Positions 7,501-59,658 of a stretch of 64,000 bases of DNA are shown in pieces. The stretch is from an uncultured Pelagibacteraceae bacterium (GTDB taxonomy: Bacteria; Pseudomonadota; Alphaproteobacteria; Pelagibacterales; Pelagibacteraceae). The notes under the pieces were generated by a model, which made no database searches, was not told the origin of the DNA, and worked only from the letters and a program-made list of their open reading frames with translations. The stretch's first letter is position 1. Every line of letters starts with the position of its first letter. The translations under genes and the position numbers were made by a program. The DNA lies in assembly GCA_902574035.1 (NCBI GenBank), contig CACGMC010000001.1, positions 62,001 through 126,000 on the forward strand, in the 5' to 3' direction.

Positions 7501-7808
7501 TCTGCTTCCATAGCTAAATTTAATGCAGTCTGACCTCCCATTGTTGGAAGAATTGCGTCTGGTTTTTCTTTAGCTAAAATTTTTTCTAAAACTGTTAAAG
7601 TTATAGGTTCAATATATGTTTTGTCTGCAACATCAGGGTCCGTCATGATTGTTGCTGGATTAGAATTAATTAAAATTACTTTATAACCTTCATCTTTCAA
7701 AGCCTTGCATGCTTGAGTACCAGAATAATCAAATTCACATGCCTGTCCAATAATGATAGGGCCAGCGCCAACTACTAAAATTTTTTTAATATCTTTTCTT
7801 TTTGGCAT
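4584..7808 (-). CDS. carB: Carbamoyl-phosphate synthase large subunit
   Basis: 1074 residues, the family's usual length (about 1070). It makes carbamoyl phosphate for pyrimidine and arginine synthesis from bicarbonate, two ATP and ammonia channelled from CarA. The two homologous ATP-grasp halves are visible: the first begins [20 protein letters not shown] and carries [14 protein letters not shown]; the second begins [20 protein letters not shown] and carries [14 protein letters not shown]. The C-terminal MGS-like allosteric domain ([16 protein letters not shown]) is present. It overlaps carA by 23 bases, which implies coupled translation. No truncation or frameshift is seen. Confidence 0.98.
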
Positions 7809-41156: not shown

Positions 41157-42545
41157 TTATTTAGGTTTAGTCATTTTAATTGGATCCATGATCTTATCAT
41201 ATTCACTTTCTGAAATAAGATTAGTTTTTAAAACTTCCTCTTTCAACGTAGTTCCATTCTTATGCGCTGCTTTAGCAATTTTAGCAGCATTGTCATAACC
41301 TATTTTAGGAGCTAGTGCTGTAACAATCATTAAAGAATTATCTAGCAAATTTTTAATCCTTTTTTTATCTGCTTTAATCCCCTTAATACAATAAAGAGCA
41401 AAAGTTTTAGATGAGTCCGCCATGATCTCGATAGACTGAAGAATGTTGTGTATAATTAAAGGTTTAAAAACATTTAATTCAAAGTGACCATGAGACCCTG
41501 CCATTGTTATTCCATTGTGATTGCCAATAACTTTTACACAAACCATAGTTACCGCTTCAGACTGCGTTGGGTTCACCTTTCCTGGCATTATAGAAGAACC
41601 TGGTTCATTAGATGGTAATATTAATTCTCCATATCCTGCACGTGGTCCAGAACCGAGAAATCTAATATCATTAGCGATCTTCATTAAACAAACTGCTGTA
41701 GTATTCATGGTGCCTGAAAAATTTACAATTGCATCATGAGCCGCGAGTGCTGCAAATTTATTCTTTGCTGGTTTAAAGGGTAATTTTGTAATTTTTGAAA
41801 TTTCTTTAATAATTTTGATATCAAAATTTTTTTTTGTATTTAATCCAGTCCCAACCGCAGTACCGCCCTGAGCGAGGTAATAAATTTCTTCTAAAGCATC
41901 CTCAATTCTATTAATGCATTTTTTAAGTTGTGCATGATATCCTGAGAATTCTTGTCCTAAAGTTATTGGTGTTGCGTCTTGTAAATGCGTTCTTCCAACT
42001 TTTACAATTTTATTAAATTCTTTTACCTTTTTAAGAAGCTCTTTTTCTAATATTTTTAATGAGGGTAAAAGTTTTTGTTTAGTTTTTATTGCTATGGAAA
42101 TGTGCATTGCAGAGGGAAAAACATCATTAGTTGATTGTGATTTATTTACATGATCATTAGGGTGTACAGGTTTTTTTGTTCCAAGTTTTCCCCCAAGCAT
42201 TTCTATAGCTCTATTTGAAATAACTTCATTTACATTCATATTAGTTTGTGTGCCTGATCCTGTTTGCCAAACTTTCAGCGGAAAATGATTGTTTAGTTTT
42301 CCTCTTATTACTTCTTCTGATGCTTTAACTATGTATTTTGAAATTTTAGAATCTAAATCACCATTATTTTTATTAACTATAGCTGCAGCTTTTTTTATTA
42401 TAGCGATAGATTGTATAACTATTGGTCTTACTAGAAAATCACCAATGTTAAAGTATTTATTAGATCTTTCAGTTGAAGCACCCCAATACTTATCACCAGG
42501 TACTTTGATTTTGCCTATACTATCAAACTCGTTTCTATACTTCAT
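41157..42545 (-). CDS. fumC: Class II fumarate hydratase
   Basis: 462 residues. Interconverts fumarate and malate in the TCA cycle, without an iron-sulfur cluster. Motifs: [48 protein letters not shown], and the signature loop [15 protein letters not shown]. The length is typical. It heads a likely fumC-uvrD-pepP transcript. It is divergent from the MazG-like gene with a 59-base gap. Confidence 0.97.
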
Positions 42546-42604
42546 TTATGATTCTCTGATATATTATTTTTATAATTAAATTAAAAAAATATAAAGGCGG
42601 AAAT

Positions 42605-42982
42605 ATGAGTAATTTTGAAAAAGTGGGAAAATTCATGAAAACTTTTGGTCAAGAAGTTAATAATAAAGCGAAATTTCCAGAAGAAAAAATAGTTAAGCTC
42701 AGATATGATTTAATTGCTGAGGAGCTTGAAGAGTTTAAGATTGCCATTAAGGAAAAAAATATTAAGGAGGTTGCAGATGCTTTAACAGATATACTTTACG
42801 TAACCTATGGCGCAGGACATGCGTTTGGTATAGATTTAGATAAGTGTTTTCAAGAAGTGCAAAATTCTAATATGAGCAAACTTGGAGCGGACGGAAAGCC
42901 CATTTACAATGAGTTTGGGAAAGTAATGAAGGGACCAAAATATTTTAAACCTAATTTAGAAAAACTTATAAATGAAAGATAA
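42605..42982 (+). CDS. MazG-like / phosphoribosyl-ATP pyrophosphohydrolase-type nucleotide pyrophosphohydrolase
   Basis: 125 residues. The all-alpha NTP-PPase signature is present: EELEEFKIAIKEKNIKEVAD, followed by ALTDILYVTYGAGHAFG with the EExxE ... ExxD spacing of Mg-binding residues, and the family end NMSKLGADGKPIYNE ... GKVMKGPKYF. Such enzymes hydrolyse (d)NTPs to monophosphates, and related ones occur in phages as well as hosts. A good ribosome site (AAAGGCGG) precedes the ATG. It starts the accessory stretch that ends at ssrA. Substrate unknown. Confidence 0.8.
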   Translation: MSNFEKVGKFMKTFGQEVNNKAKFPEEKIVKLRYDLIAEELEEFKIAIKEKNIKEVADALTDILYVTYGAGHAFGIDLDKCFQEVQNSNMSKLGADGKPIYNEFGKVMKGPKYFKPNLEKLINER

Positions 42983-43052
42983 AATTTTTTGGATTTTAAC
43001 TGGTATTGCCTTGGGGTTGTTATTCTATTTAGGAGACAAATATATTTTTTAA
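42972..43052 (+). CDS. Possible tiny membrane protein (26 aa)
   Basis: An ATG inside the last codons of the MazG-like gene (11-base overlap) opens a 26-codon frame: MKDKIFWILTGIALGLLFY then LGDKYIF. It is a single hydrophobic helix with a charged N-terminus. Overlap with the upstream stop suggests translational coupling, but such short frames can occur by chance in AT-rich DNA. No homology can be claimed. Confidence 0.35.
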   Translation: MKDKIFWILTGIALGLLFYLGDKYIF

Positions 43053-43168
43053 AAACCCATATTCGACCAATTGTCTTTATCTTTAAATCTCTTTAACTCC
43101 TCTTTTGAGGTCGGTCTTAAAAGATAATAAATTAAAAATAAAACTACAACTACAAATATTATTTCCAT
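43049..43168 (-). CDS. Possible small membrane protein (39 aa)
   Basis: A 39-codon frame on the minus strand: MEIIFVVVVLFLIYYLLRPT is a single hydrophobic helix, followed by the charged tail SKEELKRFKDKDNWSNMGF. The sharp hydrophobic/charged split is what a small bitopic protein would look like. Its stop overlaps the stop of the convergent 26-aa ORF by 4 bases. No clear ribosome site. Function unknown. Confidence 0.45.
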   Translation of the reverse strand: MEIIFVVVVLFLIYYLLRPTSKEELKRFKDKDNWSNMGF

Positions 43169-43213
43169 AATTTAAATCTAAATAATTATTTCTCTAAATC
43201 AATGCGACTGATT

Positions 43214-43528
43214 TTAACAGTTTTTTTTTTCTTTAATATTATTCAAATGTTCTGCTCTTTTCGCTGCTGCAGTAATTGCTTGATCTATATTTTTCATTGT
43301 CACTCCATATCCTGGTATAAAAAATAATATTGCCCCAATATTGTGAGGTTTATCCATTTTCTTTGCTTCTTTGGCCTCATCGGCATATTTATTTGCTAAT
43401 GCAATTTCATTGCTTAATTCTTCACAACTTAAATTACTATCATTTGGCCCAATAACATTGACTATTGTTGGATTAGCGCAAGAAACGCTATAAAAAAATA
43501 AAATTAAAAATAAAAAATTTTTTTTCAT
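43214..43528 (-). CDS. Small putative lipoprotein, unknown function
   Basis: 104 residues. The N-terminus is a lipoprotein signal (FLFLILFFYSVSC) with the lipobox SVSC and acylated Cys at about 17. The mature part has two helical stretches, SCEELSNEIALANKYADEAKEA and NIDQAITAAAKRAEHLNNI, separated by a hydrophobic NIGAILFFIPGYG segment. This helix-glycine-helix layout is seen in small exported proteins of marine bacteria, but I cannot assign a function. It stands alone between the tiny membrane ORF and an intergenic stretch that resembles the end of ssrA. Confidence 0.7.
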   Translation of the reverse strand: MKKNFLFLILFFYSVSCANPTIVNVIGPNDSNLSCEELSNEIALANKYADEAKEAKKMDKPHNIGAILFFIPGYGVTMKNIDQAITAAAKRAEHLNNIKEKKNC

Positions 43529-43684
43529 TACCAGCGGAGTTGTGTTGCGAGATACCTTTCAACCCATTGTTGTCAGGTACCCTTAACCTAGTCTCTAGAA
43601 TCCTTATATACCAACAAAGTCGTGATTGCAAAATTCTGAAATTCGAAGAAAATTAAGAGTGACTTTGTGATAAGATAATGAATT
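43529..43684. other. Intergenic region with ssrA-end-like segment (fragment C)
   Basis: 156 bases between divergent genes. It is less AT-rich than neighbouring gaps. Bases 43569-43583 (TGTTGTCAGGTACCC) match 13 of 15 positions of the ssrA coding-piece end at 46119-46133 (TGTTGCCAGGTGCCC). No ORF of note. Promoters for both flanking genes must lie here, but none is convincing. Confidence 0.4.
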
Positions 43685-44353
43685 ATGGACTTAATACTTG
43701 TTGCTCTAGTTTCAGTTATTTTAGCAACTGGAGTTTTCAATACTGAACCTAAGGTCAGTGAAGAAAATAAAAAAACAGAGAATATAGAAATAGTAAAAGA
43801 ATCGTCAGAAACGAATTCAACTGAGCAAGAGGTCAAAGCTGAAGCACAAGCTCAGGCTGAAGCGGAAGCTAAAGCAGCGGCTGAAGCTCAAGCTCAAGCG
43901 GAAGCAGAAGCTAAAGCAAAAGCAGAAGCAGAAGCACAAGCTCAAGCAGAAGCTAAAGCAGCAGCAGAAGCACAAGCTGCAGCAGAAGCGAAGTCTCAAG
44001 CAGAAGCAGAAGCAGAAGCAGAAGCACAGGAAGCAAGTAAAGAAATAGACAGTACGAAAGACTCGGGAACAAATTATTTGAGGTTAGCTCTATATATATT
44101 TGGTTCAATAATGGTTATTTCTATAGGTGCTTATTTTTATTTTAGACAACGAGATAATTTGTCATCAAGAAACGTAACCAGAACACCTGATAGTCCTAGA
44201 AGAGATTTTAGAAAAGAAGTTGTAGTTGAACCTCAAGAAGAACAGCCAAGACAAGAGGAGGTTAAACCTGAACCTCAAGAAGAACAGCCAGCACAAGAGG
44301 AGGTTAAACCTGAACCTCAAGAAGAACAGCCAACCGAAGATGAAAAAAAATAA
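43685..44353 (+). CDS. Membrane protein with Ala/Glu-rich helical repeat arm and Pro/Glu/Gln tandem repeats
   Basis: 222 residues. An N-terminal hydrophobic segment (MDLILVALVSVILATG) is followed by about 65 residues made almost only of Ala, Glu, Gln and Lys (about 52-118), which should form a long single helix or coiled coil as in TolA-like arms. A second membrane helix (about 129-152, RLALYIFGSIMVISIGAYFYF) leads to a tail of 14-residue repeats, EVKPEPQEEQPAQE-like. The tail is encoded by 42-bp tandem repeats. Codon use is more GC-rich than neighbours because of GCA/GCT and GAA/CAA codons. I recognise no family; a structural role between membrane and periplasm or cytoplasm is a guess. Confidence 0.7.
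   Translation: MDLILVALVSVILATGVFNTEPKVSEENKKTENIEIVKESSETNSTEQEVKAEAQAQAEAEAKAAAEAQAQAEAEAKAKAEAEAQAQAEAKAAAEAQAAAEAKSQAEAEAEAEAQEASKEIDSTKDSGTNYLRLALYIFGSIMVISIGAYFYFRQRDNLSSRNVTRTPDSPRRDFRKEVVVEPQEEQPRQEEVKPEPQEEQPAQEEVKPEPQEEQPTEDEKK
44231..44340 (+). repeat. 42-bp tandem repeat in the C-terminal coding tail
   Basis: Units begin with CCTCAAGAAGAACAGCCA at 44231, 44273 and 44315: two full copies and a partial third. Each full copy encodes 14 residues of the Pro/Glu/Gln tail. Near-identity of the first two units points to recent slippage or unequal exchange. Confidence 0.85.
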
Positions 44354-44374
44354 AAAAATTTTTAAAATATAAAT

Positions 44375-44382
44375 AAGGAGGT
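44375..44382 (+). promoter_or_regulatory. Unusually strong Shine-Dalgarno site
   Basis: AAGGAGGT lies 4 bases before the ATG at 44387. A full consensus site is rare in this AT-rich window, so the downstream small protein may be made at a high level. Confidence 0.7.
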
Positions 44383-44386
44383 AAAT

Positions 44387-44701
44387 ATGGGAATACTAGT
44401 CAAAGGTGAAATTACAATTACTAAAGGATTTAAAAGTTGGAAAGAGATGGTTTATGCTCAGGACGAAAAATTAAAAGAACATGGAATCAAGTTTATTTTT
44501 GCAGGCACACAAAAAAATGATCCATCAAAACTGCATACAGTGATGCAATTTCCAAACATGGAAGCACTCCAAGCTTTTAGGGATGATAAGCAACTTACTG
44601 AGAAAAGAAGGGAGGCTGGAGCTGTTATAGAAAGTGCTGTAATGATACCAATTTCAGATGAATATCTTACTAACTATCCAGATGCATATACTAAACACTA
44701 A
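44387..44701 (+). CDS. Small conserved-looking protein, possible dimeric alpha/beta barrel (DUF3764-like)
   Basis: 104 residues without signal or membrane segment. The pattern of short strands and helices (ILVKGEITITKGFKSWKEMV, IKFIFAGTQKNDPSKLHTVM, FPNMEALQAFRDDKQLTEKRREAG, then ESAVMIPISDEYL) resembles ferredoxin-like, dimeric alpha/beta-barrel proteins such as the antibiotic monooxygenase-like and DUF3764 groups. The substrate is unknown. It has a perfect Shine-Dalgarno and follows the repeat protein by 33 bases, so both are probably one transcript. Confidence 0.6.
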   Translation: MGILVKGEITITKGFKSWKEMVYAQDEKLKEHGIKFIFAGTQKNDPSKLHTVMQFPNMEALQAFRDDKQLTEKRREAGAVIESAVMIPISDEYLTNYPDAYTKH

Positions 44702-44737
44702 TTCTAGATCATAAAAAACGTCATTTTTTTTGCTATA

Positions 44738-44772
44738 TGTACCTGTATTGTGCTCACCAGTCAGTCCGGATA
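44738..44772. other. ssrA-end-like segment (fragment D)
   Basis: The minus strand reads ACTGAC followed after about 15 bases by ATACAG, the same two blocks and nearly the same spacing as in fragment B at 45455-45488. It lies between the small alpha/beta protein gene and the AsmA-like gene. Similarity is short, so the relation is tentative. Confidence 0.3.
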
Positions 44773-44782
44773 TTATGGTTTT

Positions 44783-45454
44783 ATGTCGAGAATAAATGTT
44801 ATCGTCCTCATTTTTATCTCAATTTTAATTTTTTTTAATAAAAAAATTGTTTCTTACTACTACATAAATAAATTTTCTAATTGGGTTGAAAGACCAGTTG
44901 AAATTAAAAAACTGAATTTTAATTATTCTGGCTATGTCAAAATAGAGGATATTAAAATTTTAAATCACGAAAAAAATTATTACAGAAATATATTTAAAGC
45001 TGAAAAAATAGAAATTAGTTTTGACATGAACTCTATTTTTTCAGACTTAATATTAATTAAAAGTTTAGATATATATGGTCCAGAATTTTTTTTAGATATA
45101 AATGTAAAAAAGGATAATAAAAATAATGATAATAAAAAATTTTACGAAGATAATATTGGTCTAGCCAAAAAAATAAATGAAAACACACCAGACAAAATTT
45201 GGCCAAAAAAAAATAAAGATATTAATTTTTTGATAAAAAAATCAAATTTATATGGCGGCGTAGGTTATATTAAGGTCCCTCAAATATTAAATCCATCAAA
45301 GGTGAAACTTTCACGGATGAAATTTTCTTCCTTCGGAAATGATAAAAATTATAGACATTATAAAGATATTCTAAATTCGATTCTTTTTGATTTGTATGCT
45401 AGGACAGATGAAATTAAATTAAAACAATTATTAAAGGAAATTTACAAATTTTAG
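44783..45454 (+). CDS. AsmA-like / DUF748-type membrane-anchored protein, short
   Basis: 223 residues from ATG 44783 (MSRINVIVLIFISIL); an in-frame start 33 bases earlier falls in the ssrA-like fragment and is not preferred. After one N-terminal membrane helix come alternating beta segments: PVEIKKLNFNYSGYVKIEDI, KAEKIEISFDMNSIFSDL and IKSLDIYGPEFFLDI. This opening is typical of AsmA/TamB-type proteins that build lipid-transfer grooves. However, at 223 residues it is far shorter than full AsmA. The C-terminus (LDLYARTDEIKLKQLLKEIYK-like) is charged. Possibly a cut-down or accessory member; function unknown. Confidence 0.6.
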   Translation: MSRINVIVLIFISILIFFNKKIVSYYYINKFSNWVERPVEIKKLNFNYSGYVKIEDIKILNHEKNYYRNIFKAEKIEISFDMNSIFSDLILIKSLDIYGPEFFLDINVKKDNKNNDNKKFYEDNIGLAKKINENTPDKIWPKKNKDINFLIKKSNLYGGVGYIKVPQILNPSKVKLSRMKFSSFGNDKNYRHYKDILNSILFDLYARTDEIKLKQLLKEIYKF

Positions 45455-45490
45455 GGACGTTCTGTATCCCGCCCTCGGTCAGTTCATACC
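45452..45490. other. ssrA-end-like segment (fragment B)
   Basis: TAGGGACGTTCTGT at 45452-45465 matches 13 of 14 bases of TAGGGGCGTTCTGT at 46108-46121, the end of the ssrA coding piece, and GTTCA occurs in both about 20 bases further. It starts at the stop codon of the AsmA-like gene. On the minus strand it can form a small hairpin (GGGA/TCCC around TACAGAACG). Confidence 0.5.
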
Positions 45491-45511
45491 ATAAAATACA
45501 ACTTTTTGGAA

Positions 45512-45580
45512 AGGTACATAGTTAGGTACATAGTAATTTAAGGTTTTTTTTGTTATAGATTTGCGTTTGAGGTACATAGT
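45512..45580 (+). repeat. Three copies of AGGTACATAGT
   Basis: Copies at 45512-45522, 45524-45534 and 45570-45580; the last two extend to AGGTACATAGTAAT. They lie in the 148-base gap (45455-45602) before an orphan gene; the remainder of the gap is AT-rich with a T8 tract at 45544-45551 (AGGTTTTTTTTGTTAT). They could be operator-like repeats or remnants of insertion. A reverse copy of AGGTACATA is at 44736-44744. Confidence 0.6.
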
Positions 45581-45602
45581 AATATTTGATTAAACTTACT
45601 TT

Positions 45603-46106
45603 ATGAAAAGTGTTTTAATTAAATACTGGTATCTAGTATTAATATTTTTTTTATTCTCATATCATTCCTGGTTAATGCAAATGTTTCCTTGGGAAAAACA
45701 ATTATTAAAATGTAAATTAGATTTCAATAATATCAAAATTTACAATGTACCAAAAAATATTGATTTAGAGATAAACGGTTGGGGTACAGGGAAATTTACT
45801 AACAATCAGTATTTTGGATCAAATTCATTTGGAGTAAACACTAATGGAAGTAATCGTTCAGATTTTTTAGTGAGAATTTTAGGTTCTTATCAATATGATT
45901 TTGAAATACATGTAAAAAAAGATAACTGGGGTTACGAGTTTGGTTATACACATTTGTTTTTAATTCCAAAAAAAAGAGAAACCTTTGTAGACAAAAATGG
46001 AAATAAAATTAAATTAAAATCTAGGTCTTTATATCTTATGGATATCTCGTACGATGGTAATGAGAATCCTGAAGCATTATGGGATTGTTTTGATGAATCA
46101 ATGTAA
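45603..46106 (+). CDS. Orphan membrane-anchored or exported protein, unknown
   Basis: 167 residues. One hydrophobic segment at about 7-24 (KYWYLVLIFFLFSYHSW), then a mostly beta, Asn/Gly/Tyr-rich domain (INGWGTGKFTNNQYFGSN, NWGYEFGYTHLFLIPKKR) with cysteines near both ends (LLKCKLD and LWDCFDESM) that could form a disulfide. I recognise no family. It lies between two ssrA-end-like segments and converges with ssrA, so it may be cargo brought in by insertion there. Confidence 0.6.
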   Translation: MKSVLIKYWYLVLIFFLFSYHSWLMQMFPWEKQLLKCKLDFNNIKIYNVPKNIDLEINGWGTGKFTNNQYFGSNSFGVNTNGSNRSDFLVRILGSYQYDFEIHVKKDNWGYEFGYTHLFLIPKKRETFVDKNGNKIKLKSRSLYLMDISYDGNENPEALWDCFDESM

Positions 46107-46109
46107 GTA

Positions 46110-46352
46110 GGGGCGTTCTGTTGCCAGGTGCCCCAGACCCCGTTCACTTAATTAACAAGTTAATTAAGCAGCAAGTGCAAATTTATTATTTGCATTTATA
46201 ATTAGCCCGTTACGTCGGAACTATCTCGAACGAAAGAAAAACCTTTAGACACCCGTCGAGCCTAATTCACCCCCTCAAGTTGTAAATGGTGGAGGTGGTG
46301 GGTACTGCCCCCACGTCCGCAATGTTTATTACGAGATTCGTTTATCGTCATA
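46110..46352 (-). ncRNA. ssrA: Transfer-messenger RNA, circularly permuted two-piece type
   Basis: Reading the minus strand: an acceptor piece (about 46352-46287) with ACGATAAACGAATCTCG, T arm GTGGG-GGCAGTA-CCCAC, acceptor strand CACCTCC, A and CCA ending at 46287; a 12-base spacer (46286-46275); then the coding piece starting GGGGGTGAATTAGGCTCGACGGG in meaning (46274 onward), whose GGGGGTG pairs with CACCTCC. The tag codons lie at 46193-46164 and read ANNKFALAA followed by TAA inside a hairpin. The 3' end, near 46110, is set by the GGGGC/GCCCC stem and is uncertain by a few bases. It rescues stalled ribosomes with SmpB. Confidence 0.9.
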
Positions 46353-46369
46353 GTTGGAAAACCAACATT

Positions 46370-46375
46370 TATAAT
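46370..46375 (+). promoter_or_regulatory. Possible -10 element for thyX
   Basis: TATAAT on the plus strand, 39 bases before the thyX ATG at 46415, overlapping the -10 element of the divergent ssrA promoter. The -35 region is unclear. Confidence 0.35.
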
Positions 46376-46400
46376 ATAAAACTCTTTTTTAGAGATTCAA
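46373..46400 (-). promoter_or_regulatory. Predicted promoter of ssrA
   Basis: Minus strand TTGAAT (46395-46400), 16 bases, TATATT (46373-46378). The predicted start is near 46366, where an inverted repeat (GTTGG-TTTT-CCAAC, 46353-46366) precedes the mature acceptor piece. Confidence 0.45.
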
Positions 46401-46414
46401 TAACTTTATTCAAA

Positions 46415-58806: not shown

Positions 58807-59658
58807 ATGTCCTCAAGCAGAGATGATTTTGGAATAGCTATTCGTTCAGCTCTATTAAAAAAAGGAGCTAGACAAAAGTTTTCTTTAGTTTTTTTATTAA
58901 TTATCGCAACTATAATTTTCTTATTAGACTCATATCAATTTAAAGCAATACAATTTACAAAAGTAATTATAAATGATGGAATTTACAGACTTACCAATAT
59001 CTCTACTGCACCCTTAAAGCTACTACCACAAATTAATGATAAAATTAAAGAAACAACATTTGCAATAAGTGAAAATAAAAAGCTAAAGGCTGAGATTCAA
59101 AATTTTAAAAATAAAGAATTTCAAGTTGAGTTTCTTAAGAATCAAAACGACAGTCTTAGAAGAATATTAGACTCTGATGCAAAAATCAAAGGCGAGAGCA
59201 TATTAGCAAAAGTTCTCCTTGATAAAGACAGCCCGTATCTTAAATCTATTATTATTAATAGAGGATCAAAATCAGGAATTATAAAAGGGATGCCTGTAGT
59301 TGATGGAAGTTATTTAGTTGGTAAAATTGTTGAAGTTAACTATTTATCCTCAAGAGTCCTTCTTTTAAATGATCTTAATAGTAGAATACCAATAACTTTT
59401 GGAGAGAATTCTATTCAAGCTATTTTATCTGGAAAAGGTAAAAGCAAACCAATGCTTACGTATTTACCTGATCTATATGAGCCATACGGAAATCTAACAG
59501 TTTTTACGTCTGGAAAAGACGGAGTTTTTCCTCCAGGTATACCAGTTGGTAAAACTGAAATGGATGAATTAGATGTCAAAGTAAATCTATTTTCAGATCC
59601 TAATCAACTTTCTTTTGTGACAGTTCAATTAATTAATATGAATAAGGATAATTTTTAA
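58807..59658 (+). CDS. mreC: Rod shape-determining protein MreC
   Basis: 283 residues. Short cytoplasmic N-terminus, one membrane helix (FSLVFLLIIATIIFLLDSY), coiled coil (about 70-110), then the beta-rich periplasmic domain (KVLLDKDSPYLKSIIINRGS, GMPVVDGSYLVGKIVEV, PITFGENSIQAIL). It links MreB to the PBP2-RodA pair. It starts 15 bases after mreB and ends on the mreD start. Confidence 0.92.
   Translation: MSSSRDDFGIAIRSALLKKGARQKFSLVFLLIIATIIFLLDSYQFKAIQFTKVIINDGIYRLTNISTAPLKLLPQINDKIKETTFAISENKKLKAEIQNFKNKEFQVEFLKNQNDSLRRILDSDAKIKGESILAKVLLDKDSPYLKSIIINRGSKSGIIKGMPVVDGSYLVGKIVEVNYLSSRVLLLNDLNSRIPITFGENSIQAILSGKGKSKPMLTYLPDLYEPYGNLTVFTSGKDGVFPPGIPVGKTEMDELDVKVNLFSDPNQLSFVTVQLINMNKDNF

Follow-up and report, generated by a model that had tools for sequence, protein, structure and literature searches.

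Small cassettes downstream of ssrA in SAR11 genomes and their probable origin by repeated site-specific integration at the tmRNA 3' end

How does a set of small accessory genes come to lie directly downstream of ssrA, the gene for transfer-messenger RNA (tmRNA), with displaced pieces of the ssrA 3' end between them? The question is raised by a 64,000-nt stretch, hereafter the window, from an uncultured Pelagibacteraceae bacterium (SAR11; assembly GCA_902574035.1, contig CACGMC010000001.1, positions 62,001-126,000; coordinates below are those of the window). SAR11 are among the commonest bacteria of the sea; their genomes are a textbook case of streamlining, with few recognised mobile elements, and recombination between SAR11 cells is frequent. 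A sequence-only reading of the window had proposed serial insertion at the ssrA 3' end, either by small elements that lost their integrases or by mobile units that have none. Comparison with relatives supports serial insertion, and we consider it probable that the island is a cassette array built by repeated site-specific integration at the tmRNA 3' end, most cassettes being integrase-less and the integrase acting in trans.

An exact empty site for the 2,576-bp island of the window exists in a relative, G081, where ssrA is joined directly to the sequence that follows position 43534 in the window. The 1,480 bp up to the ssrA end are 93.1% identical between the two genomes, and the 3,000 bp after ssrA in G081 are 91.4% identical to window sequence that starts 2,576 bp beyond the ssrA end. 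Neither the cargo blocks nor the segments that match ssrA are present in G081, with no copy at four or fewer mismatches in the 7 kb following its ssrA, as the sequence-only reading had expected of serial insertion; other genomes carry different cargo between the same copies, which it had likewise anticipated. Further empty sites occur in G002 and G162, which join ssrA to the flank that stands after the last copy in G164, G033, G035 and G094, and the distal flank is kept in many genomes.

The repeated element is a 23-bp core, GGCACCTGGCAACAGAACGCCCC, at the ssrA 3' end, with 5-bp inverted ends and otherwise ssrA sequence. The locus sample comprised 103 sequences (102 regions from relatives plus the window region), in 99 of which the ssrA tail was found; the regions were picked partly for having core matches, so that counts at these 99 loci are not estimates of prevalence. 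Displaced copies were defined in this set as matches to the core with at most four mismatches, and modules as the stretches between successive copies. The ssrA gene keeps an intact 3' end after insertion (the core is exact at 97 loci and has two mismatches at the remaining two), and the displaced end forms a direct repeat: 190 displaced copies, all on the ssrA strand, were identified in 836 kb downstream of ssrA, in 78 of the 99 loci. None was found in 168 kb upstream, on the reverse strand or with the reversed pattern; 21 loci, the window included, hold no copy at this threshold. Among the 190 copies, which had been selected by their core match, agreement with the consensus ranges from 87-99% over the core positions and nowhere exceeds 84% beyond them. 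Mismatches grow with rank from ssrA (Spearman 0.38, p = 5e-8), and over 49 arrays the first copy has 0.47 and the last 1.35 mismatches (p = 6e-4), an outward decay that is expected if new units enter beside ssrA. Ten rounds of dinucleotide shuffling of the downstream stretches gave no match at E < 0.05 (lowest 0.06), against 28 in the real sequences, which rejects chance for the phenomenon as a whole.

The pattern extends well beyond these loci. When 169 genomes of the same genus were searched for the 23-bp core at up to three mismatches, 138 contained it and 95 had at least two copies (360 in total, up to eight per genome), and the reversed pattern, used as a control, was found in none of the 169. 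A 19-base core at up to two mismatches was present in 233 of 297 genomes of the order, spanning seven of 11 genera, many with a single copy; this pattern does not serve to judge the second SAR11 family, whose own ssrA end differs from it (four mismatches in G217). In a tmRNA family search of 61 genomes, 11 of the same genus had a weak additional match on the ssrA contig, less than 3 kb downstream of the gene, whereas the 24 genomes of the second family had none.

What, then, does the island in the window consist of? Its features and surroundings are as follows.

46106-46404, minus strand: ssrA, a two-piece (permuted) alphaproteobacterial tmRNA gene and the integration target (RF01849, 217.7 bits)
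46110-46132, minus strand: core attachment sequence GGCACCTGGCAACAGAACGCCCC, the ssrA 3' end
45454-46109, minus strand: module 1, an orphan membrane-protein-like gene plus the right end of an integrase-type element (from relatives' modules)
45603-46106, plus strand: cargo open reading frame (ORF) of module 1, 167 aa, no Pfam family (ORF list, Pfam search)
45571-45580, 45525-45534 and 45513-45522, minus strand: three ACTATGTACC repeats, putative arm-type integrase sites (word match to the G089 element)
45454-45476, minus strand: displaced attachment copy 1, conserved in its right half (45469-45454, GGATACAGAACGTCCC; profile, module starts)
44692-45453, minus strand: module 2, an AsmA/DUF748-like gene plus a common right end (from relatives' modules)
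44750-45454, plus strand: cargo ORF of module 2, 234 aa; DUF748 is matched weakly, short of Pfam's cut-off (E 6.7e-6)
44692-44777, minus strand: type-A conserved module right end, about 85 bp with short direct repeats, common to many modules
43534-44701, minus strand: module 3, a DUF3764-like gene plus an Ala/Glu-rich repeat protein (from relatives' modules)
44387-44701, plus strand: cargo ORF, DUF3764 (Pfam search, E 3.4e-7, above the cut-off)
43685-44353, plus strand: cargo ORF, Ala/Glu-rich repeat protein, 222 aa (homologue within G083_m3)
43568-43591, minus strand: displaced attachment copy 2 (190-copy profile, E 2.5e-5 in the 3.2-kb island)
43534-43556, minus strand: displaced attachment copy 3, 17 of 23 core bases (profile E 14, not significant alone)
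41157-43533, unstranded: distal flank, which directly follows ssrA in G081 (G081 alignment)

ARAGORN places the same tmRNA gene at 46073-46382, with the tag ANNKFALAA. Genes of the distal flank are named by appearance: we take them to encode a small lipoprotein-like protein (43214-43528), a MazG-like protein (42605-42982) and a fumC-like product (41157-42545).

The boundaries in the window were settled by homology to relatives' modules and to G081, since plain alignment was insufficient. An ssrA-tail profile run over the 3.2-kb stretch gave E values of 0.05 and 0.81 for the two better of the three ssrA-like segments named by the sequence-only reading. Two of the three proved to be module boundaries. 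The segment at 45452-45465 does match ssrA at 13 of 14 bases and marks a real boundary, with the AsmA-like modules G126_T and G093_m4 starting at 45454 and 45453 (in each case their base 1), but alone its similarity is no better than chance (alignment score 23, equalled near 59,600 in the window). The segment at 43569-43583 is a real copy; the profile built from the 190 copies of relatives, whose E values refer to the 3.2-kb island, matches 43591-43568. The segment at 44738-44772 is not an ssrA copy: it scores at best 10-12 against the other segments and lies within the conserved type-A right end (44777-44692). Chance similarity, the refuting outcome that the sequence-only reading had named, still holds for the 45452 and 44738 segments when these are judged by their own sequence.

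In module 1, the stretch 46109-45575 is 94.8% identical to G088_m1, beginning at base 1 of that module, and 45556-45451 aligns with the right end of the integrase element G089_m1 (74% over 108 columns; E 1e-10 against all modules, 4.6e-14 pairwise). Copy 1 aligns with the right attachment sites of the G089 and G338 elements. With ACTATGTACC present three times at 45513-45580 and the adjoining sequence alignable to the right end of the G089 element, it is probable that an integrase element of the G089 type formerly resided in this genome and that its right end is left over. Module 2 is 86-87% identical to G093_m4 and G126_T, from base 1 of each. A 120-bp query matches its type-A end in the window (E 1.3e-15) and in 69 of the 190 modules, and in 65 of these 69 the match lies within 45 bp of the module's end. 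Module 2's own attachment copy, expected after this right end, was not found; modules 2 and 3 overlap by about 10 bp (44692-44701), which looks like a deletion between modules. Module 3 is collinear with G083_m3, G099_m4 and G159_m3 over most of its length, and the G099 and G159 alignments, extended to the module end, reach about 43534. Copy 3 ends exactly where homology with the G081 empty site begins. All window copies are on the ssrA strand, and the ORF list holds no integrase within the island and none beside ssrA.

Are such modules units of movement? Most are small: the 190 modules have a median length of 843 bp, 109 are shorter than 1 kb and 169 shorter than 2 kb. ORFs of at least 70 aa are absent from 25 modules and number exactly one in 90; over the whole set, 232 such ORFs point towards ssrA and 70 away from it. 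Fifty-four modules fall into 21 whole-module clusters whose members recur beside different neighbours, among them a 409-411-bp module, a DUF2784 cassette, found in ten genomes at several array positions. In 16 of 27 comparable module pairs the modules are at least three percentage points more identical than the flank of the same genomes on the side of what is presumably thyX (a name given by appearance); a 272-bp module is 99.6% identical against 83.6% for the flank, and a 1,362-bp module 98.8% against 84.0%. Because module identity exceeds flank identity, at least some modules have moved laterally as units, and others fit vertical descent. As for the two origins proposed earlier, lost integrases or units without one, the second fits many modules better, because near-identical integrase-less modules occur in divergent genomes.

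The cargo is diverse. The 302 ORF products form 170 clusters, and the scan covered 150 of the 155 cluster representatives of at least 85 aa. Restriction-modification functions (DNA methylases, type III and type I restriction subunits) appear among the best 25 of 94 families, as do trypsin-like proteases, methyltransferases, Fe/Mn superoxide dismutase and several families without a known function; each family has three members at most. A defence library gave, among the best 25 of 280 families, methyltransferases and others, with at most five members per family. At the lower end of the size range stand cassettes of 124-136 bp (G143_m1, G117_m1, G073_m4 and G035_m3), each with scarcely anything besides a stretch like a ribosome-binding site and an ORF of about 20-30 codons that resembles a single membrane helix.

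Many modules have left or right ends in common, and some ends contain short repeats. Nine-mers common to both ends of one module were found in 36 of 134 cases, against 10.3 +/- 2.9 (maximum 21) in 1000 re-pairings. Among 100 modules of at least 800 bp, tandem words spaced 10-13 bp apart occur at seven left and 11 right ends, against one and none in two inner controls. The repeated words include ACTATGTACC, TCAACGAAGTT, GGACTCA and ACTCGTAAT. The G089 element has three copies of ACTATGTACC at its left end and two at its right end; the G338 element has three copies of TCAACGAAGT at its left end and two close to its right end, and the left-end words of both are spaced 11-12 bp. These repeats look like the arm-type sites of a lambda-type integrase, a likeness from which an arm function may be supposed.

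Where could a recombinase come from? The sequence-only reading had suggested a search for integrases in relatives, and this yielded one module and, in four other genomes, family members close to ssrA. Of the 190 modules a single one, the 7,880-bp G089_m1, was found to contain an integrase-like gene; the G089 element itself probably ends at base 7548 of this module, where there is another, divergent attachment site. The 409-aa G089 integrase has no Pfam, PHROGs or Protein Data Bank match by sequence. In protein searches it occurs in one of 169 genomes of the genus and has relatives in six of 297 genomes of the order; a tmRNA gene lies on the same fetched stretch, about 8 kb away or less, in four of the six (G338, G421, G330 and G217, the last from the other family), and none was found on the fetched stretches of G423 and G285. 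R235, K269, R345-H346 and Y377 are invariant in the five full-length members. A structure modelled from the five-sequence alignment reached a mean predicted local distance difference test score (pLDDT) of 76 and a predicted template-modelling score (pTM) of 0.49 (a single-sequence prediction, at pLDDT 39, was not usable), and a Foldseek search with it gave 39 matches at E <= 0.001, led by Tn1549 Int (E 7e-7, TM-score 0.37 of query) and including XerA, an integron integrase and lambda Int. The G338 integrase matches phrog_1 integrase (E 1e-12), and the Phage_integrase family is weakly matched in three of five relatives (E about 1e-3, below Pfam's cut-off). By alignment and by the model, the candidate has the catalytic residues and fold of a tyrosine recombinase.

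The integrase gene lies at the distal end in G089 and G338 and nearer ssrA in G217. The G338 element, about 9.4 kb long and apparently intact, is flanked by ssrA and a ppdK-like gene; it has arm words at either end as well as a right attachment site. Both the G089 and G338 elements also encode a resolvase-type serine recombinase of 225-246 aa. Downstream of ssrA in G330 and G421 (L347 and L353) we observed integrase remnants that look like decayed copies of an autonomous element.

Cores were also found away from ssrA. In G148 an array (L343, contig 1, 3662-15474, minus strand) holds three exact cores and one with three mismatches; the first of these copies extends into the 3' end of tRNA-Thr(TGT), a gene that finishes in GGCACCA, similar to the left half of the core, and the array also contains type-A module ends, which makes tRNA-Thr a second target for these cassettes. 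No tmRNA gene was found in this stretch; G148 has its tmRNA gene, accompanied by one core, on a different contig. Two cores 272 bp apart occur in nine genomes (G023, G105, G107, G108, G125, G126, G164, G167 and G169). At L284, L304, L360 and L361 the cores enclose the 272-bp cassette of the ssrA arrays, with its 71-aa ORF, beside tRNA-Leu(TAA), and at L304 and L360 a tRNA-Thr(TGT) lies 1-2.3 kb off on the strand of the cores; single cores of G066 and G070 stand in the same neighbourhood (L358 and L359). The distribution of cores indicates that ssrA is the main, not the sole, target in this genus. In another genus, g6 (G201 and G313; L362, L365 and L366), exact cores were seen with no tmRNA or tRNA gene found in three of five fetched 8-kb stretches, which may reflect more targets or rearrangement.

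Phages were considered as carriers, and none was found: in all eight viral contigs with an exact core, the core is the end of the contig's own tmRNA gene. A word from module right ends was found in no viral contig, and no relative of the integrase was found in viral contigs or phage records. These viral tmRNA genes (L088-L095) are themselves two-piece, with a tag ending in ADENLALAA; two-piece tmRNA on phages has been described before, in the passages cited (PMC9004378).

How might the array be built? The sequences show module boundaries, a single polarity in the ssrA arrays, an empty site and the recurrence of cassettes in new contexts, and likewise lateral transfer of some cassettes between divergent genomes and an integrase family near ssrA. 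An incoming unit, putatively a circle with one attachment site, would recombine within a 25-bp core of two 9-bp half sites and a 7-bp overlap (GGGGCACCT-GGCAACA-GAACGCCCC), a division drawn from tyrosine-recombinase practice that would place the crossover in the overlap. Insertion would restore the ssrA end and push the previous end outward, so that the array would grow at ssrA and age outward. Most units are integrase-less, with one or a few genes and a retained attachment core, many of them with arm-like words at both ends, and the recombinase, a tyrosine recombinase of about 400-430 aa, may be supplied by a rarer autonomous element of about 7.5-9.5 kb. Since all modules but one lack a recognisable integrase, and since divergent genomes share near-identical modules of this integrase-less kind, cassettes most likely relocate with the help of an integrase acting in trans; integrase loss after insertion and homologous exchange of array pieces are possible for part of the modules.

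Several observations weigh against this account. The 45452 copy is not significant by itself (profile E 0.14), 136 of the 190 modules have no partner at the cluster cut-off, and, of the 27 module pairs, two fall three points or more below the identity of the flank and nine lie in between, which fits vertical descent. Cores are not confined to ssrA, and the copies elsewhere in some genomes make the target wider. The arm words of the G089 and G338 elements resemble those of a minority of cassettes only, many small cassettes have no arm-like repeats, and the GGACTCA-type and ACTCGTAAT-type ends, which account for a large share of the largest end clusters, could be paired with no integrase-bearing element. 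The TM-scores of the integrase model are modest (0.33-0.44 of query among the best 40 structures), and neither a circular form nor a viral carrier was seen. A host Xer recombinase could still be the agent, although it is not supported. Phage_integrase proteins occur in 120 of the 169 same-genus genomes, exactly one in 110 and two in 10, and among the matches listed (the core places of G184, G187 and G192 excluded) one shares a contig with cores, by eye, only in G148, about 93 kb away. The single protein is of Xer size, mostly about 309-327 aa, and the genus may use one Xer recombinase.

If nothing is mobilised in trans, the modules could be shrunken autonomous ssrA-integrating elements that lost their own integrase after insertion. 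The integrase remnants near ssrA in G330 and G421, the integrase-type right end without an integrase in module 1 of the window and the outward decay of the copies would all suit such a history. Yet near-identical integrase-less modules stand at different array positions in divergent genomes and so have moved without an integrase of their own, and 109 modules, at less than 1 kb, are below the size of the 1.2-kb integrase gene; we regard this history as an unlikely explanation of the array. Somewhat less likely still is that ordinary homologous recombination of imported DNA at ssrA, the mazG/fumC flanks and the cores spreads the cassettes, the site-specific step being ancient or minor. The frequent recombination of SAR11, the distal flank kept in so many genomes, the two pairs less identical than their flank and the deletion-like junction at 44692-44701 agree with exchange of this kind, but homology stops at the core in the aligned cases, modules are found again singly, with other modules beside them, 23 bp is little length for homologous exchange, and cores and one array cassette are also found at unlinked places.

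That the repeats are terminators or processing hairpins between genes, with no insertions at all, is very improbable. The ends of the core (GGGGC...GCCCC) could pair as a short hairpin and the copies are intergenic, but all 190 copies at the 99 loci have one orientation and lie on one side of ssrA, relatives have empty sites, and in the 190-copy profile the loop matches as well as the stem, the left stem half being the more variable part (core conservation is in part by construction). Terminator or regulatory repeats were rejected on the grounds of single polarity, the one side of ssrA and the empty sites.

Integration in trans at the tmRNA end remains our preferred account, and on balance we lean, with more reserve, towards a wider proposal: SAR11 may possess an integron-like capture system on tmRNA, with tRNA-Thr as an occasional second slot, in which species-spanning integrase-less cassettes of about 0.1-2 kb are mobilised in trans by the integrases of rare visiting elements. 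If so, a streamlined genome would have a cheap, ordered and evolvable slot for accessory genes such as restriction-modification, superoxide dismutase and small membrane genes, and a conserved cassette slot would explain part of the SAR11 accessory gene pool. It would also point to hitchhiking elements reduced to attachment sites and cargo, and the order of cassettes in an array would then be a record of gene exchange among uncultivated plankton. With an integrase family identified, trans mobilisation is open to direct test.

How does the array compare with known systems? Integron cassettes are small integrase-less units; a tyrosine recombinase whose gene lies outside them inserts them at a fixed site, all with the same polarity. 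The SAR11 cassettes are likewise stacked in one polarity, without an integrase, and exchanged between genomes. Unlike in an integron, however, the head of the array is ssrA and no integrase-like ORF stands beside the head in the window, so that a defining feature of integrons is absent there; the sites are near-identical ssrA ends and not visibly attC-like (no dedicated attC search was made), and ORFs run in both directions. Compared with ssrA-targeted islands in general, the restored gene end and the empty site are present, and an integrase within the island is not.

In Dehalococcoides, the cited passages describe tandem islands downstream of ssrA with a 20-bp repeat of the ssrA 3' end; 15 of 31 have no integration module and were suggested to be mobilised in cis with their neighbours, and 16 of 31 carry a six-gene module whose integrase, DsiB, is a CcrB-like serine recombinase (PMC3146451, PMC2764846). 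Tandem arrangement and ssrA-end repeats are common to both systems, and the cargo in Dehalococcoides is described as strain-specific. Unlike the system so described, the SAR11 candidate is a tyrosine recombinase present in one of 190 modules, with no DsiB-type six-gene module, and the SAR11 units are mostly small (median 843 bp), some recurring singly between species. In 'Ca. Methylopumilus', fGI-2 islands of 330 bp to 42 kb are reported, in the part cited, to be preceded by repeats of the last 20 nt of tRNA-Lys (PMC10872708). They resemble the SAR11 arrays as additive, repeat-bounded islands of very variable size in a streamlined plankton genome, whereas the target is tRNA-Lys there and mainly tmRNA here. 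Tycheposons, as outlined in the same source, target tRNA genes and measure 4-200 kb (PMC10872708); like the SAR11 elements they are cargo-carrying integrative elements of streamlined marine bacteria that use RNA genes and a tyrosine recombinase, and unlike them, on that outline, they are not directed mainly at tmRNA or mostly below 2 kb. No report of an ssrA cassette array in SAR11 was found, judged by title or opening of the abstract, among the listed open-licence papers on SAR11 islands, hypervariable regions, tmRNA, integrases and mobile elements or on tandem islands at tRNA genes. Tandem islands at ssrA are known, and the SAR11 arrays differ from those of Dehalococcoides in the class of recombinase, in the smaller size of their units, in that some units recur singly in several species, and in having hardly any integrases.

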